Both the position numbers and the translations under genes were made by a program. Under the pieces are notes generated by a model. The model worked only from the letters and a program-made list of their open reading frames with translations. It did not search any database and was not told where the DNA came from. Shown one piece after another: positions 7,760 to 52,120 of a stretch of DNA of 52,120 nucleotides. The DNA is taken from contig JANXRY010000123.1 in NCBI GenBank assembly GCA_025356635.1, forward strand, positions 1-52,120. Reading direction: 5' to 3'. The stretch is from Gammaproteobacteria bacterium (GTDB taxonomy: Bacteria; Pseudomonadota; Gammaproteobacteria; Xanthomonadales; Xanthomonadaceae). Each line of letters begins with the position of its first letter. Position 1 is the stretch's first letter.

Positions 7760-10125
7760 GGTCGCGGCACTCCCGGCCGGGAGTCGGGCGAAAATGTCTG
7801 CAGCGCCGAAAGCACATTGTTCCAGGCACGGTCCAGCAAACTGACTTTCTCCGACTCGACGATCTTCAATTGATCCTTGGCCATCAGGCGGGCCAGTTGT
7901 TCCAGCGTGTATTCGGCCACTTTCTGGCCGCGATGGTTGACGAACAGCGCGTGGCTGGTGGCGACACTGAACCAGGACAGCCGCCGGCGCGAAATATCGC
8001 CCTGCTGATTGGAAGTGAAGTCGAACCAGGTGCCAAAGGCAACCTGCTTGAGTCGCTCCAGATGGGTCCGTTGTTCTTCACTCAACGGTGTTTTGCGGGC
8101 AGTGGTGCCCTCCATCTCCTCGCCCAGGCGGGCACCCGACTTCAGGCGCATCGTCAGTTCGGTCCGACTGTTGCCTTCGTCCTTGCTGGCGGGCGCGGCA
8201 GGATCGACCAGGCGCAGCGCGATCGCGCTGGCTTCATCGGCCTGATAACCGACCTGGGTCAGCCCCTGCTCGATATCGGTTTGCAGGGGTTTGGCATCCG
8301 CAGGCCGTTCCTTGGCATCGGCTAATTCGACCAGCCGCTTGGCAATGGCGATTTGTTGCTGCCAGGCGTCGGATTCGTCGCCACGGCGCAGGGCAGTCAA
8401 TGCCATCACATCGGTCCAGGCCTGGCTCAGCATGGTTTTGGTGAAGTGCGGCAGTTTTTTCTGTTTGCAAATTGCCTCGATCGACTGGGCGGCACGATCG
8501 CGCGCCAGCGACAGTTTTTCCTTGCCGCGTGCCGCTTCGACATGGCGTCGTTCGGCGACTTCGGCCTTGTGGGTGACCGTCTTGAGGAATCCAAGCAGGT
8601 CTTCGAGCAGATTCCTGAACACGTCGAGGTCGCCGTTGTACTCGCGGGCGCTGCGGTCGACGATGGTGTTGAGTTTGTCGACCAGGCCCGGGTCGGGCTC
8701 TTCCTCACTCAACCAGTGCGCGCCGGTATCGGCAATCGTGTCGAGCATCTGCCGGGCGGGATGATGGGAACCCACGAAAAACTGCGGATCCTCCAGGGCG
8801 GCACGCAGCACCGGCACTTGCAGTCGCGCCAGCAGCTGGGCCGCCGGGCTGCCGGGGCGGACGTCCTTCATCAGGTTGTCGTAGAGCATGCCCATGAGGT
8901 CGATCACGCCATTGTCGAGCTCTGACAGCGCCGGGGCTTCCTGGTATGCGGCGAACTGGCGCAATGCCGCCAGCGCGTCCTGCTTGAGATGGCTGACCGT
9001 GCGCGGGACTGCCTTGCCATCAACCATGACCGGTGCCGATGGTTTCAATTGCAGGCTGCGCAGCGCTGATTGCAAATCGGCGGACGATACTGCTGCAGCC
9101 GATCGCTCGCCGGGCCCAACTGTGTTGGTGGTGGCTAGACGGCCGAGCAATTTTCGCCGGTTGGCGAGCAGTTGCAGCAGCATGTCGATCGGCGCGCCAG
9201 TCGAGTCAGCAGTAGCGGCCGGCCCCGACGGCGCCGCGGGAGCTATTCGCTGTGGCTGGCCAACACCTGTGGTCAAGCCGGACAGGCTTTGTTCACTGCC
9301 ACCGAAACGCAATTGCGAACGCGCCGAGCGCTCGGAATCGGCTTCCTCCAGACTCAGGCCGACGGTCTTGAGATCGGGCATGCCGATGCCACTCTCGCCG
9401 CCGGTCCGCGCGGTTGGTCGCATGCGCACCGGCACGTACTGCATGTTTGGCAGGACGCCGCTCTCGACGAGGTAACGGTTGATGGCATCGATCAGCGGGC
9501 CGAGCGTCGAGATGACATGGCGGTCGAAGGAACGGAACAGCATGACCCGCTGGCCTTCCGACAGGCCGGAGTTTTCGGCGGCCTGGCGAATGGCACGGCA
9601 CAACGCCTTCGGGCCCACGGGCAGCGTTTCCGGGTCGAATCCGGGCCGTCCGGCAAGTACGCCGAAGCGTTGGCCGAGTAAATACAGCGGCAGGCTGTGG
9701 CGGAGTTCGGCACGGCTGGCGATGTCGGTGAGGACGCTGGTCTCGTCCATCTCGATATCGTCCACCAGCGACATTTCTTCGCTGCGCAGTGCTTTTGCCT
9801 GGATTTGCCCACGAACGATTTGCGGCTCTCTCAAGTTGGCCAGTTCCGCCTCGAGCCCGGAAGTGAAACGGTTGATCAGGGCATTGTGACCACGACTGAA
9901 GGCCTGCTTGACGTCGAGCAAGCGCAATTCTTCACCGTGGTCGCCCGCTCGACCGGCACTTTGAACCAGGCGCTGCTCGAATTCATTGATCGCAGTCAGC
10001 AGGGTAGGATCCAGTTGCTTGCCTACCAGGCGCAGCACGCCTTCGAGCAATTCGCGCACGCGCCTGGGCATGAACCGGGACGCAAGCGTTGCTTGGTCGC
10101 GCTGGTCGTTGGTCGGCTGGGACAA
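7756..10125 (-). CDS. DUF1631 family protein
   Basis: A 789-residue cytoplasmic protein of the DUF1631 family, whose role is not established. The N-terminal part (LLEGVLRLVGKQLDPTLLTAINEFEQRLVQ, then a long helical region with SLPLYLLGQRFGVLAGRPGF) and the C-terminal part (VAFGTWFDFTSNQQGDISRRRLSWFSVAT, VNHRGQKVAEYTLEQLARLM) look like this family. The middle (about residues 250-340) is low-complexity and rich in Ala, Ser and Gly. The C-terminal WFDF...RRRLSW stretch has a PilZ-like flavour, which is an inference. The start is TTG at 10125, supported by GGGAG 7 nt upstream; the next ATG is at 10071. It overlaps the PilZ gene by 4 nt. Confidence 0.8.
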   Translation of the reverse strand: MSQPTNDQRDQATLASRFMPRRVRELLEGVLRLVGKQLDPTLLTAINEFEQRLVQSAGRAGDHGEELRLLDVKQAFSRGHNALINRFTSGLEAELANLREPQIVRGQIQAKALRSEEMSLVDDIEMDETSVLTDIASRAELRHSLPLYLLGQRFGVLAGRPGFDPETLPVGPKALCRAIRQAAENSGLSEGQRVMLFRSFDRHVISTLGPLIDAINRYLVESGVLPNMQYVPVRMRPTARTGGESGIGMPDLKTVGLSLEEADSERSARSQLRFGGSEQSLSGLTTGVGQPQRIAPAAPSGPAATADSTGAPIDMLLQLLANRRKLLGRLATTNTVGPGERSAAAVSSADLQSALRSLQLKPSAPVMVDGKAVPRTVSHLKQDALAALRQFAAYQEAPALSELDNGVIDLMGMLYDNLMKDVRPGSPAAQLLARLQVPVLRAALEDPQFFVGSHHPARQMLDTIADTGAHWLSEEEPDPGLVDKLNTIVDRSAREYNGDLDVFRNLLEDLLGFLKTVTHKAEVAERRHVEAARGKEKLSLARDRAAQSIEAICKQKKLPHFTKTMLSQAWTDVMALTALRRGDESDAWQQQIAIAKRLVELADAKERPADAKPLQTDIEQGLTQVGYQADEASAIALRLVDPAAPASKDEGNSRTELTMRLKSGARLGEEMEGTTARKTPLSEEQRTHLERLKQVAFGTWFDFTSNQQGDISRRRLSWFSVATSHALFVNHRGQKVAEYTLEQLARLMAKDQLKIVESEKVSLLDRAWNNVLSALQTFSPDSRPGVPRP

Positions 10126-43101: not shown

Positions 43102-43143
43102 TTGATCCATGTCAGGCTGCCGCTTGAACCGCGCCATTAAAAT
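43102..43143 (+). promoter_or_regulatory. Porin promoter with weak FNR/DNR-type box
   Basis: TTGAT-CCAT-GTCAG (43102-43115) differs from TTGAT-N4-RTCAA at one base. Its centre is 41.5 nt before the start predicted from TAAAAT at 43138-43143 (+1 at 43150), the class II activator position. No good -35 is present, as expected for an activated promoter. Confidence 0.5.
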
Positions 43144-43170: not shown

Positions 43171-44364
43171 ATGAGCAACCGGACCCTGATTTTCCTGGCC
43201 GTATTGGCGGCGCTGCCGCTGTCTGTACAGGCGGCGGATACCGCCCCCGCCAAGGGAAAGCTTATTTTCGAAGCCAGGCTGCGTAACGAACAAGTCAACG
43301 ACGATGCTTTCGCCAGGGACGCCACCGCCACTACCTTGCGCGCCCGCCTTGGCTACAAGACAGCCGTGCATTCGGGTTGGAGCGGTGTGGTCGAATTCGA
43401 AGGCACCCAACACTTGGGCAGCGAGCATTTCAACAGCACCGCCAATGGCCAGAACGCCTATCCGAGCGTGGTCGATCCCGACAACACCGAGCTCAACCAG
43501 CTCTACGCGAACTACCAGCCGAGCGATGCCACCCGCGTAACCTTCGGGCGCCAGCGCTTGCAGTACGACAACCAGCGTTTCATCGGCAATTCCGGTTGGC
43601 GCCAGAACGAACAGACCTTCGACGCGCTGGATGTCCAGCACAAGTTCGGCAATGGATTGACGCTTCGTTACAGCTACCTCGATCGCGTGCAGCGGGTGAA
43701 TGGCGATGACAATCCCAACCGCAATCTCGCTCGTTGGAATCTCGACGCGCATCTGTTGAGCCTGGCGCATGCCGTTGGTCCGGGCACGCTGACCGGCTAC
43801 GGATATTTCATCGACAACCAGACCTTGCCGACCACCTCGCACCGCGATCTCGGTCTGCGCTATGTTGCCAAGCATGATGCGGCGGACGCGATCGGCTGGC
43901 AGTTCGCTGCCGAATTCGCCCGCCAGGACAGTTACGCCAACGGCAGCGCCTTGATCGGCGCCGACTATTACCTGCTCGAAGGCGGCGTGACCTGCCACGG
44001 CAATACTTTCAAGGCCGGCCACGAAGTGCTGGGCGGCGACGGCCACTACGCCTTCCAGACACCGCTCGCGACCTTGCATGCTTTCGATGGTTGGGCCGAT
44101 CGTTTCCTGACCACGCCGGTCAATGGTCTGCAGGACAATTACCTTGGCTGGAACCGCAAGTTCGGCAAACTCACGGCGACGGTGGCCTGGCACGATTTCC
44201 GTTCCGATCATGCCTCGATCCACTATGGGCAGGAATGGGACGCTTCACTGGCTTGGGCGTTCGCGCCGCATTGGACCGCGCTGGCCAAGCTCGCTGACTA
44301 CAGCCACAAGGATGTCGGCGCCGACGTCACCAAGACCTGGGTCAGCGTCGAATACGTTTACTGA
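43171..44364 (+). CDS. Outer-membrane porin, alginate-export-like
   Basis: A 397-residue barrel protein with signal peptide (MSNRTLIFLAVLAALPLSVQA, cut before ADT). The body is a series of amphipathic strands ending in aromatic Y (WVSVEYVY). Segments such as ARLRNEQVNDDAF, LRARLGYKTAV, NQLYANYQPSDATRVTFGRQRLQYDNQRFIGN are typical of the alginate_exp/AlgE-like porin family. Many members are general anion or organic-acid channels and do not export alginate. It has its own promoter with an FNR-like box and converges on the nirK operon, whose last gene ends 6 nt away. Confidence 0.8.
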   Translation: MSNRTLIFLAVLAALPLSVQAADTAPAKGKLIFEARLRNEQVNDDAFARDATATTLRARLGYKTAVHSGWSGVVEFEGTQHLGSEHFNSTANGQNAYPSVVDPDNTELNQLYANYQPSDATRVTFGRQRLQYDNQRFIGNSGWRQNEQTFDALDVQHKFGNGLTLRYSYLDRVQRVNGDDNPNRNLARWNLDAHLLSLAHAVGPGTLTGYGYFIDNQTLPTTSHRDLGLRYVAKHDAADAIGWQFAAEFARQDSYANGSALIGADYYLLEGGVTCHGNTFKAGHEVLGGDGHYAFQTPLATLHAFDGWADRFLTTPVNGLQDNYLGWNRKFGKLTATVAWHDFRSDHASIHYGQEWDASLAWAFAPHWTALAKLADYSHKDVGADVTKTWVSVEYVY

Positions 44365-44369
44365 CGTTC

Positions 44370-44987
44370 CTACATCAGCGCGGCTTTGACGGCCTTCATG
44401 AATTCCGGATCTGGCGTCGCGCCCATCTTCTCGGTGCGTGCCAGGATCCGGCCATCGGCATCGAGCAGCACCAGCGCGCTGGTGTGATTGAAGTCGCCGT
44501 CGGCCAGTTTCCGATAACGAACACCGAGCAGGGCCGCCAGCTTGCGCACGGAAGCATCGTCAGTGCGCGCCAGTGTCCATCGCGACAGGTCAAGCTTGCG
44601 CTTGGCCGCCAACGCTGCCAGCACTGGCGGCGTATCGCGGGCCGGGTCGATACTGACGAACAACACGTTCATGCGCGCGCGTTCGCTGGGCGTAAGTGCG
44701 TGGTCCACGCCACGGGCGCTGTCGACCAGCAGCGGGCACATGTACTTGCAGGAGCTGTAGAACATCGCCACCAGCTGCGGTTTGCCGCGCCGTTCGGCAA
44801 GCGTGAAGGCGCGGCCGTCCTGCGTCGTGAAGCTATCTTTCAATTGCAGAATTGAATCGACGGGTAATGGCGCTGCGGTCGTCTTTGCGGACGCGCTCGC
44901 GCCGCTCGCGCCCTGCGGTACCGCGTCGGTCGCGAGCGCGTCTGCCGCCGACAGCAGCGCGATCGTTAAAGCGAGAGTTCGAATCAT
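44370..44987 (-). CDS. SCO/SenC-type copper chaperone
   Basis: A 205-residue periplasmic thioredoxin-fold protein with signal peptide (cut near A19). The copper ligands are intact: C80-x3-C84 (YSSCKYMCP) and H168 (DGDFNHTSA). VLFVSIDPARDTP is a conserved Sco block. Sco proteins deliver copper to cytochrome oxidase CuA or act as thiol reductases. Here the gene overlaps nirV by 4 nt and is third in an operon that begins with copper nitrite reductase, so a role in loading NirK copper is likely (inference). ATG follows GGAGAAAG. Confidence 0.92.
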   Translation of the reverse strand: MIRTLALTIALLSAADALATDAVPQGASGASASAKTTAAPLPVDSILQLKDSFTTQDGRAFTLAERRGKPQLVAMFYSSCKYMCPLLVDSARGVDHALTPSERARMNVLFVSIDPARDTPPVLAALAAKRKLDLSRWTLARTDDASVRKLAALLGVRYRKLADGDFNHTSALVLLDADGRILARTEKMGATPDPEFMKAVKAALM

Positions 44988-45760
44988 CGCGCTTTCTCCG
45001 GAATATCCATGGCACAACGAAAACCCAGGTTGCTGGTGGTGTCATCGGCTTCAAGCGAAGACAGCATCGCCACCCGCATCAACACCGCATAGTTGTCGCG
45101 ATCATCTACGGCCAGCGCGCCGGCGCCGCAGAATTTCAACCGATCCGGATCCTGCTGGTTGCGACTGTCCCCGGAGACAAGCATGCCGGAAAAATCGTCC
45201 ACCCATTCCCAGACCAAATCATTCAGATCGTAAATGCCGTAAGCATTGGGAAGTGACTGGCCGACGTTTGTGAGTGCTTGGTTGGAGGGCCGCGCATACC
45301 AGCCCAAGATCGCTTCGCGCCAGGCCGGATCGCTGCGAGCGTCGCGCCGAGTCGCATCGGCGGCGGCGGTGTATTCCCATTCGTTCCAAGTTGGCAGGCG
45401 CGTGCCCTGGGCTTCGCAAAAGGCCGATGCGGCGAACCAGCTGACGTTGACCACCGGCTGCGCCGGCTTGGCGCCACCGCCGAGTTCCAGTGGCCCGGCC
45501 CAGTGCTGCAGGTAGCGCGACTCGGCGAACACCGGCGAAACCTGGCCGCGCTGCCATTGCGGATGGGCCTGCACGAAAGCGAGGAACTCGGCGTTCGTGA
45601 CCGGTTTTTTCATCAACAGGAACGGCGGCAAGTTAACCTTGCCGCCGGTGTCCTCGTACTTGAGCGTGCTGCGGAACTCGCCGCCCGGCAATCGAACGAA
45701 ATCGTCGGCGGCCGCAGCGAGTGAGGGTGCCAACGCCAGTGCGAGCACCCATCCGCGCAT
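44984..45760 (-). CDS. nirV: NirV-like SUMF1/FGE-domain protein
   Basis: A 258-residue periplasmic protein with signal peptide (MRGWVLALALAPSLAAAA). It has the formylglycine-generating-enzyme fold: FVRLPGGEF, the KKPVTNAEFLAFV segment, PVVNVSWFAASAFCEAQGTRLPTWNEWEYTAA, YDLNDLVWEWVDD and the end SNLGFRCAMD. NirV genes often follow nirK; their function is unsettled. The two copper-binding Cys of true formylglycine enzymes (Cys-x4-Cys before the SSNLGFRC end) are not both present: only FCGAGA is seen. It starts 3 nt after the nirK stop and overlaps sco by 4 nt. Confidence 0.85.
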   Translation of the reverse strand: MRGWVLALALAPSLAAAADDFVRLPGGEFRSTLKYEDTGGKVNLPPFLLMKKPVTNAEFLAFVQAHPQWQRGQVSPVFAESRYLQHWAGPLELGGGAKPAQPVVNVSWFAASAFCEAQGTRLPTWNEWEYTAAADATRRDARSDPAWREAILGWYARPSNQALTNVGQSLPNAYGIYDLNDLVWEWVDDFSGMLVSGDSRNQQDPDRLKFCGAGALAVDDRDNYAVLMRVAMLSSLEADDTTSNLGFRCAMDIPEKAR

Positions 45761-45763
45761 CCG

Positions 45764-47251
45764 TCAGTGACCCTCGGCCGGCTGGCTTGCGGCTCGCGCC
45801 TTGGTCACGTCATCGGTGCTGATCTGGCCACCTGGATTGCCCCAGCTGTTGAGCACGTAGGTCACGATGTTGGCGACTTCATCGTCGCTGAGCTGGGTCA
45901 TCGGTGGCATTACCGAGTCGTACTGCTGGCCGTTGACCGTGACCTTGCCGTTGAAACCGTGCATGACGATGCCGATGGCGCGCTTGGGATCGGCGGCGAG
46001 GAAATCGGACTTCGCCAACGGCGGGAACACGCCGGGAAGGCCCGCACCGCTAGCCTGGTGACAGGCCGAGCAGGTGCCGTTGAAGAGCGCGCCACCGGCC
46101 TTGACTTGTTGTTCCAGAGTCAGCGTGCCACTGGCGGCGGCGGCGGTCGCTACCGACACCGAAGTCAGGTTTGGTGCCGCGCGCTCACCCACATAGGTCG
46201 AGTCGACTTCCTTGCCCGAATAGATCGCGTGGTTTTCCGGGCCGGTCGCCTTGAGCATCGCCAACGCGCCTTTGTTGAAGGTACGGAAGATCGAATGATC
46301 CACCAGCAGGTAGGTGCCCGGCACGTCGATATGGAATTGCGCCATGGCGGCGCCGCCGGAAGGAATCAGGGTCGTCTGCACGTTTTCCTGGAAGTGCGAA
46401 CCGCCCTCGAACCAGACCTTGTCGAAGATTTCGCCGATCACGTGGAAACTCGACACCAGGTTCGGGCCACCGTTGCCGACATAGAGCCGCACCGTCTCGC
46501 CGACCTTGGCCGGCAGGGCCTTGTCACCGGTCAGCGCGCCTTCGGCGCCATTGAACAGCACATAGGTGGGGCGCTCGTCGATGGCCTTGCCCATGTCGAA
46601 GTCCTGGTGGCCTTTCTCGCGATATTTTCCGGTCGTGTAGAAGTCGCCCTGCATCACGTAGTACTCGTGGTCGACCTTGGGCAGGCCCTGCGGTGGCTCG
46701 ACCAGAATCAAACCATACATGCCGTTGGCGATATGCATGCCGACCGGCGCGGTGGCGCAGTGGTAGACGAACAGGCCGGCATTGAGCGCCTTGAAGGTGA
46801 ACTGCGATTCATGGCCTGGTGCGGTGAAGCTCGACGCCGCACCGCCGCCCGGCCCGGTCACGCCGTGCAGGTCGATGTTGTGCGGCATCTTGTTGTCCTG
46901 GTGGTTCTTCAGGTGGAACTCCACCGTGTCGCCCTGGCGCACGCGGATGAAGCTGCCCGGCACCGTGCCGCCGAAGGTCCAGAAGGTGTAGGTCACGCCT
47001 TCGGAGATTTCCCGTTCGACTTCGCGTACTTCCAGGTTGACGATCACTTTCGCCGGCACGTGCCGGCCGGTGGCTGGCGGCACCATTGGCGGCGAGGTCA
47101 GGATGGCGTTGATCGGCGCGCCTTGCGGCGGGCCGAAGTCGCCATGGGTTGCGCCTCCCGTAACAGCGGCTCCGGCGGGTACGCTGGACGTGAGGCCCAC
47201 GGCCAAGGCAAGCGAGCTGGCGATCAAAAGAGGCAAGAGTGCGCGTTTCAT
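45764..47251 (-). CDS. nirK: Copper nitrite reductase with C-terminal cytochrome c domain
   Basis: Reduces nitrite to nitric oxide in the periplasm. The 495 residues include a signal peptide (about 1-29), two cupredoxin domains and a fused class I cytochrome c (about 378-475). Type 1 copper ligands: H124, C165, H173, M178; type 2: H129, H164, H319; catalytic D127 and H270. All fit the known NirK pattern. The heme site is C394-x2-C397-H398, with M449 or M451 (VMPPM) as axial ligand. The three-domain form, known for example in Ralstonia pickettii, tethers the electron donor. ATG 47251 follows GGGGGAC. First gene of nirK-nirV-sco, with an FNR/DNR box at -41.5. Confidence 0.95.
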
Positions 47252-47285
47252 GAAGTCCCCCGACAGGTTGGAAGTTGATAGTGGC

Positions 47286-47291
47286 ACCATA
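47286..47291 (-). promoter_or_regulatory. Predicted nirK -10 element
   Basis: TATGGT on the minus strand; with +1 at 47279 it leaves a 28-nt leader and puts the FNR/DNR box centre exactly at -41.5. Confidence 0.55.
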
Positions 47292-47313
47292 GGGAAGCAG
47301 CCGTCTGTCTGCT

Positions 47314-47327
47314 TTGACACAGGTCAA
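47314..47327. promoter_or_regulatory. FNR/DNR/NnrR-type operator between nirK and moaC
   Basis: Perfect palindrome TTGAC-ACAG-GTCAA, matching the TTGAY-N4-RTCAA consensus of CRP/FNR regulators that sense oxygen or nitric oxide. It lies at -41.5 for nirK. On the moaC side it covers the -35 (TTGACA, 47314-47319) of a promoter with TAGAAT at 47335-47340. Confidence 0.75.
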
Positions 47328-47340
47328 TCACCGCTAGAAT
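47314..47340 (+). promoter_or_regulatory. Candidate moaC promoter, nearly leaderless
   Basis: TTGACA, 15-nt spacer, TAGAAT; predicted +1 at 47347, two bases before the moaC ATG. The regulator box overlaps the -35, so binding would interfere with this promoter. Confidence 0.45.
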
Positions 47341-47348
47341 AGTGGGCA

Positions 47349-47876
47349 ATGAACACCACTGATCCCGAATCGCGTGGCTTCTCCATGGCCGATGTCCGCC
47401 ACAAGCAGGTTACTGCGCGTCGCGCGGTGGCGGTTGGTGAGATTTCAGTGGGCGAAGTTGCCTATCCGCTGGTCGTTGAGCGCCGGCTTCCCAAGGGCGA
47501 TGCACTCGTCATGGCCGAGATCGCCGGCCTGCAAGGCGCCAAGCAGGCTTCGAACCTGATGCCGCTGTGTCATCCGCTGATGCTTGATTTGGTGCGGGTG
47601 CGCTACCGGCTGGTGCCGGAGCGGCACGCCATCCACGTTTATTGCGAAGTCGCCACCGAGGCGCGTACCGGCGTGGAGATGGAAGCCCTGGCCGGCGTCA
47701 GCGCCGCCCTGCTCACGCTCTACGACCTGGTCAAGCCGGTCGAGCCGGCCCTGGCGATCGGTGGCATCCGTCTGTTGTTCAAGGAAGGCGGCAAGCGCGG
47801 CCTGTGGAAGCATCCGGACGGCATGACCGAGGCCGAGCTCGCGCAGTACGCGCCGTCCGAACCGAACGCGCCATGA
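47349..47876 (+). CDS. moaC: Cyclic pyranopterin monophosphate synthase
   Basis: Second enzyme of molybdenum cofactor synthesis, making cPMP from the MoaA product. The 175-residue protein has GFSMADVRHKQVTARRAVA, ASNLMPLCHPLML with the active-site His, EVATEARTGVEMEALAGVSAALLTLYDLVK and the C-terminal Lys/Gly loop KEGGKRGLW. No ribosome site lies before ATG 47349. Its stop overlaps moeA by 4 nt. moaA is not in the window and must be elsewhere. Confidence 0.94.
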   Translation: MNTTDPESRGFSMADVRHKQVTARRAVAVGEISVGEVAYPLVVERRLPKGDALVMAEIAGLQGAKQASNLMPLCHPLMLDLVRVRYRLVPERHAIHVYCEVATEARTGVEMEALAGVSAALLTLYDLVKPVEPALAIGGIRLLFKEGGKRGLWKHPDGMTEAELAQYAPSEPNAP

Positions 47877-49132
47877 TTTCGTTCGAACAGGCGCAGCGGA
47901 CGATCATCGCCGCTTGCCGGCGCTTGCCCATGGATGTGGTCGAATCGACACAGGCGTTCGGACGCGTGCTCGCCGAAGACGTCATCAGCCCGGAAAATCT
48001 GCCGCCGTTCGACAACAGTGCGATGGACGGATTCGCGCTCGCCTGCACCGGCGCGCCACTTGCTGCCGGGCGTGAATTCGAGGTCACCGGCGCGATCGCC
48101 GCCGGCGACGCGCCAGGCGCGCTGGCGGCCGGCGCCGTGGAAATCATGACTGGCGCGCCCGTCCCGGCCGGGTTCGACGCGATCCTGCCGGTGGAGCAGG
48201 TGGAAGTGCTCGAGCGTGACAGCAATGGCCGGCCGATTCGCATCCGAACGCTTGCCGAAGTCGTACCCGGCGTGCATGTCCGTCGGCGCGGCCAGGATAT
48301 CGTGTGTGGTCAAGCCGTGTTGCCGGCTGGCGCACCGATCGATGCCGCGGCGAAGATGCTGCTGGCGGCGCTAGGCATCGCCGACGTCAGTGTGTTCGCG
48401 CGTCCTCGGGTCGCGATCCTGTGTACCGGCCGCGAATTGCTCGACGATCCACGCTCGCCGCTCGCGCCGGGACAGATCCGCAACAGTAACGGGCCTTTCC
48501 TTGCCGACCGCCTCGCCGGTCTCGGCGTCGATGTCTGCTCGCGCGAAACCGTGCCCGATGAGAGCGGAGCTTTCCTCGCCGCCGTTCGCCGGTCGATTCA
48601 AGCGCATGTCGATATCGTGATCAGCACCGGTGCGGTGTCGATGGGTCGCTACGATTTCGTTCCCGAGGCCTTGCGTGAACTCGGCGCCGAGATCGTCTTC
48701 CACAAAGTCGCGATCCGGCCGGGCAAACCGGTATTGTTCGCGCGCCTGCCGTCGGGAGCGTTGTTTTTCGGCCTGCCCGGCAACCCGATATCGAGCGCGG
48801 TCGGCCTGCGCTTTTTCGTACAGCCCGCGCTGCGGGCGATGCAGGGTTTGCCGGTAGAAATGCCCTTGCGCCTGCCGCTCGCGCAGCCGATCGAAAAGAA
48901 AACCGGCTTGCGTTTCCTGCAGAAAGCACGCGTAAGCGTGGCCGGTACCGGCGGCTTGCAGGTGCATTTGCTGCCAGGCCAGGAATCCTTCCGCATCCAG
49001 CCCCTGCTCGCCGCCAATGCCTGGGCGGTGTTGCCTGAAGATATCGAGAAATTTTCGGCAGGTGATCTCGTCGAAACCCACGGCCTGGAGCATGTTGCCG
49101 TATCGATTACGACATCGGTAATCACGCCATGA
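47873..49132 (+). CDS. moeA: Molybdopterin molybdenumtransferase
   Basis: Inserts molybdate into adenylylated molybdopterin. The 419 residues have the MoeA blocks AFGRVLAEDVISPENLPPFDNSAMDGFAL, IMTGAPVPAGFDAILPVEQ, RRRGQDI, the MoCF/MogA-like domain (ILCTGRELLDD, GQIRNSNGPFLADRL, ISTGAVSMGRYDFVPEAL, GLPGNPISSAVGLRFFV) and a C-terminal beta domain. ATG 47873 overlaps the moaC stop; longer upstream frames lie inside moaC. Overlaps moaD by 4 nt. Confidence 0.95.
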   Translation: MISFEQAQRTIIAACRRLPMDVVESTQAFGRVLAEDVISPENLPPFDNSAMDGFALACTGAPLAAGREFEVTGAIAAGDAPGALAAGAVEIMTGAPVPAGFDAILPVEQVEVLERDSNGRPIRIRTLAEVVPGVHVRRRGQDIVCGQAVLPAGAPIDAAAKMLLAALGIADVSVFARPRVAILCTGRELLDDPRSPLAPGQIRNSNGPFLADRLAGLGVDVCSRETVPDESGAFLAAVRRSIQAHVDIVISTGAVSMGRYDFVPEALRELGAEIVFHKVAIRPGKPVLFARLPSGALFFGLPGNPISSAVGLRFFVQPALRAMQGLPVEMPLRLPLAQPIEKKTGLRFLQKARVSVAGTGGLQVHLLPGQESFRIQPLLAANAWAVLPEDIEKFSAGDLVETHGLEHVAVSITTSVITP

Positions 49133-49386
49133 TCATCGAACTCGAACTTTTCGGTGCCTTGCGTGGCCTCGAACACGCGGACCGGATGTCGCTGCAAGTC
49201 TCCGGCGATCGCGTCGCCGATTTACGCGCCGCCCTTGCCGCATACGCCGCTGCCCATTGGCCCGGTTTGGCGCCGGGCCTGCTGGCCAAGTGCGCGTTCG
49301 CCACGCATAGCGAAATCCTGCGCGATGGCGATGCCGTGTCCGCCGACGTACGCATGTCGGTGTTGCCGCCGGTCAGTGGCGGTTGA
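49129..49386 (+). CDS. moaD: Molybdopterin synthase sulfur carrier subunit
   Basis: An 85-residue ubiquitin-like protein (beta-grasp) that carries thiocarboxylate sulfur on its C-terminal glycine for molybdopterin synthesis. It starts MIIELELFGALR and ends with the diagnostic PPVSGG. Overlaps moeA by 4 nt; moaE begins 2 nt after its stop. Confidence 0.93.
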   Translation: MIIELELFGALRGLEHADRMSLQVSGDRVADLRAALAAYAAAHWPGLAPGLLAKCAFATHSEILRDGDAVSADVRMSVLPPVSGG

Positions 49387-49388
49387 CC

Positions 49389-49835
49389 ATGTCCAATCAC
49401 TTCCTGCATGTTTCCGGTATCGCCGCGGAAAAACTTGATGCGGCCACCGCGCTGGACTTCGTCGCCGATCCCGGTTTCGGCGGGGCGACCCTGTTCATCG
49501 GCCGCGTGCGCGACCGCAATCACGGCCGCGACGTGCTCGGCGTGAGTTACGACATCCATCGGCCGCTGGCGCTGGTGCGTTTTGCGCAGATTGCCGTGGA
49601 AATCGAGCGCGAAGTCGGTGGGCAATTGAAGCTTTACATCGCCCATGCCCATGGTCGGCTCGCGGTCGGCGACATCGCCGTGGTGATCGCCGCCGGCACG
49701 CCGCATCGCGACGAAGCCTTTCGTGCCTGCCGGCAGGCGATCGAATCGGTCAAGCACAGCGCGCCGATCTGGAAGCAGGAACACTACGCCAACGGCGACA
49801 GCGCCTGGGGCGAGGGTTGCTCGCTCTGCGACTAG
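49389..49835 (+). CDS. moaE: Molybdopterin synthase catalytic subunit
   Basis: Converts cPMP to molybdopterin with MoaD. The 148 residues include GATLFIGRVRDRNHGRDV (the conserved FxGxVR region), AHAHGRLAVGDIAVVIAAGTPHRDEAF and the active-site block ESVKHSAPIWKQEHY with the catalytic lysines. ATG 49389 is preferred to a TTG at 49383. Last gene of moaC-moeA-moaD-moaE; its stop codon shares CTAG with the convergent gene. Confidence 0.94.
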   Translation: MSNHFLHVSGIAAEKLDAATALDFVADPGFGGATLFIGRVRDRNHGRDVLGVSYDIHRPLALVRFAQIAVEIEREVGGQLKLYIAHAHGRLAVGDIAVVIAAGTPHRDEAFRACRQAIESVKHSAPIWKQEHYANGDSAWGEGCSLCD

Positions 49836-50884
49836 CTGGCGAGTAATGCCTGCAGCGCATGTCGCGCCGGGTCGAGATCGACGTTGTGTGCAGACAGCCA
49901 TTCCGGGTTGAACAAGGTCTGCTGGTAGCGTTCGCCGTGATCGCAGAGCAGGCTGACGATGCTGCCGCGCTCACCGCGCGCACGCATGGTCGTCGCCAAC
50001 TGCAGGCAGGCGATCAGGTTGGTACCTGAAGACCCGCCATAGCGGCGGCCCAACAAGATTTCCAGTTCCCAAGCCGCGGCGATCGAATCGGCGTCCTCCA
50101 CTTCGATCACGGAATCGACGATCTCGAACAGGAAACCCGGTTCGACATGTGGCCGGCCGATGCCTTCGATCACGGTGGCCTTGGTGGCGATGGCGCGGCG
50201 ATCGCGCGTAGCCCAGCCGCGCGCAAAGGCACCACCGGCCGGCTCGGCGACGCACAGTTGTGTCGCCAACAGGCGGTAGCGCAAGTAGCGGCCAAGGGTG
50301 GCCGAGGTGCCGCCGGTGCCAGCGCCGCAGACGATCCAGGCGGGTTCCGGATGGGCTTCGCCCGCCATCTGGCCAAGAATAGACTCGGCGATGTTGTTGT
50401 TGCCGCGCCAGTCGGTCGCCCGTTCGGCCAGGCCGAACTGGTCCAAGTGGCAGGCGCCGCGTTCGGCATGCCAGGCTGCGCGTGCGTGGACATCGGCCGG
50501 ATCCCGCACGAGGTCGCAATGGCCGCCGAGCGCCTGCACATCGCTGATCTTGCGCGGCGCCGTGCAGGCCGGCATTACCGCGATGAATGGCAGGCCAAGC
50601 AGGCGCGCGAACCAGGCTTCGGAAATCGCCGTGCTGCCCGAAGATGCATCCACCACCGCCTGACCTTCGTGCAGCCGGCCGTTGCACAGCGCGTACAGGA
50701 ACAGCGAGCGCGCCAGACGGTGTTTCAAGCTGCCGGTCGGGTGCGCTGCTTCGTCCTTGAAGTAGAAATCGATGTCGGGGAAGGCCGGCAAGTCCAGCTT
50801 GAGCAGATGCGTGTCGGCCGAGCGCCCGGCCTCGCGCGCCAGCATCACCAGCGAGGCGTTGACGAAGGATCGCTCCGCGCTCAT
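49832..50884 (-). CDS. PLP-dependent cysteine-synthase-fold enzyme
   Basis: A 350-residue fold-type II PLP enzyme. K54 in HPTGSLKHR is the cofactor lysine; SSGSTA replaces the TSGNTG substrate loop of CysK, and GAGTGGT is the phosphate-binding loop. LLCDHGERYQQTLFNPEWL near the end resembles the cysteine synthase/CBS/Cds1-type C-terminus. It could be a cysteine desulfhydrase or a beta-replacing synthase. Its ATG overlaps by 4 nt the stop of a PLP decarboxylase upstream, so the two are probably linked in one pathway. Confidence 0.82.
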   Translation of the reverse strand: MSAERSFVNASLVMLAREAGRSADTHLLKLDLPAFPDIDFYFKDEAAHPTGSLKHRLARSLFLYALCNGRLHEGQAVVDASSGSTAISEAWFARLLGLPFIAVMPACTAPRKISDVQALGGHCDLVRDPADVHARAAWHAERGACHLDQFGLAERATDWRGNNNIAESILGQMAGEAHPEPAWIVCGAGTGGTSATLGRYLRYRLLATQLCVAEPAGGAFARGWATRDRRAIATKATVIEGIGRPHVEPGFLFEIVDSVIEVEDADSIAAAWELEILLGRRYGGSSGTNLIACLQLATTMRARGERGSIVSLLCDHGERYQQTLFNPEWLSAHNVDLDPARHALQALLAS

Positions 50885-52120
50885 GGGCTGACCAAGGCCC
50901 GAATTCGTTGCGCCAGGAAATCGAAATACAGGTCGATGTAACTGATGCCATTCTCGTGGTCGATCAGATACGGATTCATCAAGGTGTGCCGCAGGATGCT
51001 CAGCCGATCGGTATCGCTGTCGCCGACGATCAGGCTGTCCGGATCGAGGTCGAGCACGGCCAGCAGGCGTGTGGTTTCTTCGGGACCGATGACTTCCGGG
51101 CGCAGGGTCGTGCTGGAGCTGAAGAATTCCTTGAACTGCAGCGGGTGTCGGGGATCGCTGCGCAATTCGTCGTGCAAGCAGCGGACAAATTCGTTCATGT
51201 GCTTGACCGAACGATTACCGCACGGATTCAGCGCCAGGCAGACCAGGTTGCTGTCGGGCGGGAATGGCACTTCGACCTTGACCACGCCTGCCATCTCCTC
51301 GGCGAACACCAGCGCGCGCGCATGGAAGGCTTCGGCCGCGAGCAGGGTCTGCCGCAACAGGCGCCCGAAGTGGCGATGGTCCAGCGGCAATACTTTGTGG
51401 GTTACATAGACTGCGGCGGCGGCCGCACCGGACTTCGACCCCTCAGGGATGAATTGGCCTAGCGATCGGTAGCGGGTCAGATAATCTGCGGCTTGCTCGC
51501 CATGGAACACGTAATCGGCTTCTTCGGAAAGCAGGGCCATGGCGCGATGATCGCGGCAGATAAAGGCACCCGTGCCGAACGGTAGGAAGCCAAGCTTGTG
51601 CGGATCGACGGTGACCGAATCCGTGCGGCCCAACGCGGCGAAGGCGGCATGGACTTCTGGTGCGGGGAAGTTTCGATATTCGGCGCGCACCTCGGCGAGC
51701 GGGCGCAGGCTGCCGTCTTCGCTGCGGAACACGGTGGTCAGGTAACCGCCCCAGGCGCCATCGACGTGCACCGAGAAACCAAGGCCCTGCGCGGCAGACC
51801 GGTCGCGGGCAGCGAGCACCGCATCGACCGGATCGATGGTTCCGTATTCGGTCGATCCTAATACCGCCACGGCCAGCAGCACCGGCTGTTGTTCCCGATG
51901 GAACCGCTCCAGCGTCTCTTCCAGAATCGCTGCATCCATGCGCATGCCGCGCTGCGGTAGCAACTCCAGTTGCTCGCGACCCAGGCCGAGCAGCTTCACG
52001 CCCTTGCTCCAGGAATAATGCGCGGTGATCGGCGCCAGCACCTTCGGCGGGCGCAGGTCCGGGTGTCGAGCGAAGAAACCGGTGAGCCCATGCTGCTCGA
52101 TGCGCTGGTTTTTCACGCGT
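50881..52120 (-). CDS. Group II PLP-dependent amino-acid decarboxylase, C-terminal part (5' end outside window)
   Basis: The frame is open to the window edge, so the first part is missing and about 413 residues are seen. PLP residues are present: HVDGAWGG (Asp to the pyridine nitrogen) and VDPHKLGFLPFGTGAF (cofactor Lys). AHYSWSKGVKLLGLG and EYGTIDPVDAV fit the group II fold (glutamate, aspartate, tyrosine and cysteine-sulfinate decarboxylases). The DPHKLGF-type active site is closer, from memory, to PanP-like aspartate decarboxylases than to DPHKW-type enzymes. Substrate unknown. Overlaps the cysteine-synthase-fold gene by 4 nt. Confidence 0.85.
   Translation of the reverse strand, partial: RVKNQRIEQHGLTGFFARHPDLRPPKVLAPITAHYSWSKGVKLLGLGREQLELLPQRGMRMDAAILEETLERFHREQQPVLLAVAVLGSTEYGTIDPVDAVLAARDRSAAQGLGFSVHVDGAWGGYLTTVFRSEDGSLRPLAEVRAEYRNFPAPEVHAAFAALGRTDSVTVDPHKLGFLPFGTGAFICRDHRAMALLSEEADYVFHGEQAADYLTRYRSLGQFIPEGSKSGAAAAAVYVTHKVLPLDHRHFGRLLRQTLLAAEAFHARALVFAEEMAGVVKVEVPFPPDSNLVCLALNPCGNRSVKHMNEFVRCLHDELRSDPRHPLQFKEFFSSSTTLRPEVIGPEETTRLLAVLDLDPDSLIVGDSDTDRLSILRHTLMNPYLIDHENGISYIDLYFDFLAQRIRALVSP

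Follow-up and report, generated by a model that had tools for sequence, protein, structure and literature searches.

The window analysed here is the whole 52,120-nucleotide stretch of a contig assigned to the Xanthomonadaceae, and belongs to an assembly (genome G000) of 2.5 Mb in 126 contigs with an estimated completeness of 97%. It contains a copper nitrite reductase gene, nirK, which is transcribed divergently from an operon for molybdenum cofactor (Moco) biosynthesis that begins with moaC. The features on which the analysis is based, including those of one sister species (genome G016) where they bear on a signal, are the following:

43102 to 43115, plus strand: second FNR-type box, TTGATCCATGTCAG, which has a single mismatch and stands ahead of the gene for an outer-membrane protein (43171 to 44364), with TAAAAT at 43138 to 43143
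44370 to 45017, minus strand: SCO1/SenC gene (PF02630), start codon uncertain
44984 to 45760, minus strand: nirV-like gene with an FGE-sulfatase domain (PF03781)
45764 to 47251, minus strand: nirK, encoding a copper nitrite reductase whose C-terminal part matches cytochrome c (TIGR02376, over cut-off; ATG at 47251)
47279, minus strand: predicted nirK transcription start, deduced from the -10 hexamer
47286 to 47291, minus strand: predicted nirK -10 hexamer TATGGT, 23 to 28 nt past the box
47314 to 47327, no strand: FNR-type box, TTGACACAGGTCAA, exact match
47314 to 47319, plus strand: possible moaC -35 hexamer TTGACA, within the box (TTGACC in G016)
47335 to 47340, plus strand: possible moaC -10 hexamer TAGAAT, at a distance of 8 nt from the ATG (G016 has the same hexamer at a distance of 7 nt)
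47349 to 47876, plus strand: moaC (TIGR00581, over cut-off; ATG at 47349)
47873 to 49132, plus strand: moeA (best NCBIfam model MoeA, under the curated cut-off)
49129 to 49386, plus strand: moaD-like gene (TIGR01682, under cut-off)
49383 to 49835, plus strand: moaE-like gene with an uncertain start codon (matches to molybdopterin synthase models score below the cut-off)

The moaC-moeA-moaD-moaE block lies reversed upstream of nirK, and moaA is absent from the operon. The start codon of moaC is backed by homologues, in which the same residue is encoded by ATG (G016) or by GTG just after moaA (G023). Beyond moaE, positions 49832 to 52116 carry genes for a PALP-family PLP enzyme and a pyridoxal-dependent decarboxylase; homologues of both occur upstream of nirK at locus L116, and one or the other at L079, L082 and L117.

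The sequence between the two start codons contains TTGACACAGGTCAA, a perfect TTGAC-N4-GTCAA palindrome, and both this element and the minus-strand TATGGT are present exactly where the first-pass annotation had placed them. The box is the sole exact TTGAY-N4-RTCAA match in the window, for which 0.13 matches are expected; at least one such match was carried by 10 of 100 shuffles of the window, so that the bare palindrome is by itself weak evidence. From the position of TATGGT, transcription of nirK would start at 47279 and the box would be centred at -41.5, the spacing of a class II activated promoter. The corresponding hexamer of G016 reads TAAGGT. An inverted repeat between the box and the -10 (AAGCAG...CTGCTT) was also considered and was dropped because its copy in G016 is not exact.

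The proposed geometry was compared across nirK loci from two sources: 30 that represent the best matches among 61 genomes, and the 80 highest-ranking of 303 from the genome_contigs set. These amount to 110 loci and, once identical sequences were merged, 101 distinct upstream regions. With one mismatch allowed and a distance of up to 350 nt from the nirK start, the box was found in 85 of the 101 regions, perfect in 44 and missing from 16, in a sample whose members are mutually related and were picked by nirK similarity and are hence not independent. The same pattern read backwards occurred in 1 of the 101 regions, and 20 shuffled versions in a mean of 2.65 and a maximum of 6. When the 85 box-bearing regions were aligned on the box nearest to nirK, the information content after it was highest at +24, with 0.97 bits for A, and at +28, with 0.82 bits for T. 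The corresponding pattern.A...T stood at offset 23 past the box in 53 of the 85 regions (24 of 28 in the subset L024 to L053) and in 0 to 10 at each of 39 other offsets; no such peak appeared on the far side of the box (at most 10/85), and 32 regions lack the pattern at the class II offset. This peak indicates that the -41.5 geometry is real and bears out the spacing claimed for nirK. The footprint shows a class II FNR layout before nirK throughout the Lysobacterales sampled and in some beta-proteobacteria. It gives strong support to class II activation of nirK, whose promoter is very probably an ordinary class II FNR promoter.

The first-pass annotation had proposed scanning the genome for further TTGAY-N4-RTCAA sites and for genes of the FNR, DNR and NnrR type. 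Exact sites occur at 22 places in the assembly (backward control, 2 per strand), four of them tied to respiratory or heme genes, namely nirK, a COX1-family oxidase gene that is probably ccoN, hemN, and a COX2/COX1 cluster. Many of the 22 are probably chance occurrences, since 12 of the 21 sites outside the window lie within predicted ORFs; the hemN site is counted among these 12 and lies in a pgk ORF, at its 5' end, which is predicted too long. The one-mismatch box TTGATCCATGTCAG has TAAAAT at the class II offset, and among the five promoters compared the.A...T pattern is found at this offset for nirK, the COX1-family gene, hemN and the outer-membrane protein gene, the COX2 cluster being the one without it. 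The outer-membrane protein is of the alginate-export type, and a homologue of its gene is divergent from nirK in 12 of 80 loci. The contig with the COX2/COX1-type cluster (C19, locus L170) also bears a second COX1-family gene, with two exact boxes nearby at contig positions 8588 and 9325; the COX1-family products encoded there score below the NCBIfam cut-offs, and the models do not assign them to the oxidase or the NO reductase type.

Three proteins of the assembly match the Crp/FNR-type helix-turn-helix family PF13545. Two of them have Cys at all four conserved positions that we take to be the ligands of the FNR cluster; among known structures both are most similar to FNR-type regulators, and the nearest NCBIfam model of both is Fnr, with 222.2 and 200.8 bits, slightly under the cut-off of 228. 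The third is presumably a Clp-like protein, as judged on its sequence. A Cys-less relative of DNR or NnrR was not found among the three in this 97% complete assembly, and the remaining cNMP-binding matches do not match PF13545. With two four-Cys FNR proteins and no Cys-less relative detected, FNR is more likely than DNR to regulate the nirK box, and of the FNR/DNR-type regulator first proposed the FNR half is the likelier, the DNR half finding no candidate gene. Control of the box by HcpR or by an NO sensor without the cysteines, such as DNR or NnrR, in place of FNR is very improbable on this count. The motif itself is common to these regulators: according to PMC1274295, a DNR motif of the FNR-box type is found ahead of denitrification genes that include nirK, and TTGACnnnnGTCAA is the consensus for HcpR in two cyanobacteria. 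At the stated completeness a DNR or NnrR gene could be missing from the assembly; with no candidate gene found in it, DNR, NnrR and HcpR were rejected as regulators of the box, and the genome evidence points to an oxygen sensor and not to an NO sensor.

One of the two FNR genes sits after hemN, which has a box of its own with TAGTCT at the class II offset. In loci extending at most 4 kb to each side of nirK, the better FNR match near nirK was of the hemN-side type in 11 of 80 loci and of the other type in 2 of 80, so the hemN-side paralogue is perhaps the best candidate for acting on nirK. In several Dyella, Rhodanobacter and Frateuria loci (L098, L122, L125, L097, L119 and L120), hemN and, behind it, the second FNR type lie directly or closely upstream of nirK.

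On its other side the box stands just 21 bp from the ATG of moaC, and a moaC promoter must consequently be located upstream of the box or share sequence with it. The pair TTGACA/TAGAAT overlaps the box and would start transcription 0 to 2 nt before the ATG, giving a nearly leaderless mRNA; its spacer of 15 nt is shorter than usual. The 13 bp beside the box that include TAGAAT are identical to G016 in 13 of 13 columns (permutation p 0.003 at that place), against 55 identical columns of 83 overall outside the box. For an identical run of at least 13 columns at any place p is 0.08, and a further run, of 16, is found near the nirK start, which makes the conservation beside the box suggestive only. 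A scan confined to spacers of 16 to 18 nt returned instead a sigma-70 pair of TTGACA and AATAGT (47338 to 47343, spacer 18), discarded since G016 has AATGGC there. The earlier claim that the box covers the moaC -35 is therefore partly sustained: both hexamers are present and the 13 bp are kept in G016, whereas the spacer is short and the -35 of G016 reads TTGACC. An overlap between the box and a moaC -35 is plausible. Searches with Rfam models returned no riboswitch before moaC or moaA in L024, L025 and L168 (SRP RNA and tRNA were the only matches, in L168), and control of this kind was rejected for these loci.

Activation of nirK and moaC together through the one box is very improbable, as a class II -10 for moaC would be needed at 47350 to 47355, within the start of the gene, where TGAACA (GAACAC in G016) is unfit; shared class II activation was rejected on this ground, even though in relatives the moaA-moaC cluster is often FNR-boxed (15 of 23 loci when one mismatch is allowed, three of them perfect) and activation may be the older state. 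With the class II -10 place not fitting, bound FNR could hinder moaC and could hardly activate it, and we consider a lowering of moaC by FNR on the box an even chance. According to section 10 of PMC3688515, the sites of the 16 FNR-repressed E. coli promoters whose start is known range from -125.5 up to the start itself, and within this range the moaC placement is possible and not diagnostic. Against repression, a single copy of moaC was found in G000, so that a strong block would deprive the cell of Moco; moaA lies on a different contig, where the 4 kb examined contain no box, so the operon should still be expressed.

The reading in which the box serves nirK alone, with the moaC promoter elsewhere (in the nirK leader or coding sequence) or constitutive and closeness without regulatory effect, is a serious competitor that we hold somewhat less likely than not. 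It agrees with the youth and rarity of the divergent layout, found in 2 of 395 family genomes, with the sub-optimal TTGACA-15-TAGAAT pair, and with the statement in PMC1805755 that in divergent pairs often just one side is regulated. It accounts less well for the preservation of TAGAAT and its surroundings in G016, and transcription from a promoter upstream of the box would still meet bound FNR.

The unusual dual placement emphasized by the first-pass annotation is indeed rare. A 441-bp query spanning nirK-moaC matched somewhere in 104 of the 395 family genomes and at full length only in G000 and G016, the other matches being moaC coding sequence or short stretches; nine plasmid records with short nirK matches belong to Agrobacterium and Rhizobium. 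Divergent moaC within 1 kb of nirK was found at 3 of the 110 loci, many of which are short, and these are G000 and G016 (the latter twice). Gene orders were established by tblastn, and a count of the orientation of the upstream neighbour of nirK by ORF calling was set aside as too noisy. Elsewhere moaA is upstream of moaC: of the moaC loci compared, this holds for 24 of 28 in the first set, not counting those of G000 and G016, and for all 18 in the second. Among the 23 loci with moaA of the closer type, 8 have no box before it; at 13 loci the hexamer at the class II offset could be read, and it agrees with.A...T in 11 of them, many of the loci coming from one genus. In G023 and G106 narG lies within the moaC stretch and in G005 about 4.5 kb from moaC; none was listed among the ORFs of the moaC stretch of G048 and none was found in G006 (85% complete). 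No NarG scored over the cut-off in G000 or in G016 (81% complete), and of the four PF00384 proteins of G000 NuoG and an FdhF/YdeP-like protein exceed their cut-offs while the other two reach none.

Beyond moaE, G016 carries SirB-like and NorB-like genes oriented as nirK, and the order norB-sirB-nirK without the moa block is found in 7 of 80 loci (L055, L071, L078, L086, L094, L105 and L126), although the genes are not always adjacent. A perfect box also lies in G016 between the norB-like and SirB-family genes (L212, 7406 to 7419). The simplest reading of these gene orders is that the moaC-moeA-moaD-moaE block was placed, reversed, directly upstream of the nirK box in an ancestor of the two species. 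A more specific scenario, tentative and on balance unlikely, is that a moaA-led Moco operon, often FNR-boxed and near narG in three genomes, moved reversed into the nirK control region in an ancestor of the two species, neither of which has a detected NarG, and that half of the box became there the -35 of a new leaderless moaC promoter and the sign of FNR on moaC changed from activation to repression.

As a whole, we favour, with a probability of about 0.6, the explanation in which a class II FNR site for nirK also blocks moaC. On depletion of oxygen, an FNR dimer whose iron-sulphur cluster is intact, likelier the hemN-adjacent of the two paralogues, would bind at -41.5 and recruit RNA polymerase to TATGGT, leading to expression of nirK and of the nirV and SCO genes behind it. 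The half-site TTGAC(A/C) would serve as the -35 of the moaC promoter, with TAGAAT for its -10, and FNR on the box, at about -26.5 relative to moaC, would block this promoter, so that nirK rises and moaC falls. The comparison supports the box, the spacing of the -10, the FNR candidates and the gene order; which FNR acts, where moaC starts and that it is lowered are our inferences. One regulator raising nirK and lowering or re-timing moa, as first suggested, is in agreement with the footprint for nirK, and a lowering of moaC is predicted from the geometry.

The nirK half belongs to a kind that is already known. According to PMC3688515, 19 of 23 directly FNR-activated E. coli promoters with a known start have a site at -41.5 +/- 4, and the class II promoters of narG, nirB, narK and dmsA share with the present one an FNR site centred at -41.5; they differ in that the target is nirK here, with a start deduced from the sequence. 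Our literature search found no report of nirK with FNR as a class II promoter, which does not prove its absence from print. In Neisseria, PMC1802743 and PMC1274295 describe an FNR-dependent copper nitrite reductase gene (aniA, or nirK) with a divergent neighbour, which is norB there, with NsrR and NarP sites also predicted, and moaC here. Moco genes under FNR are likewise known from enterics, where activation of moaA by FNR in nitrate is reported (PMC3688515) and FNR control of moaABCDE is predicted for several species (PMC1805755); there the effect is activation, whereas the geometry at the present locus predicts hindrance of an operon without moaA. The moaC half is a lineage-specific rearrangement with a putative regulatory effect and, if true, would provide a compact natural case of a regulator switching sign because an operon moved.
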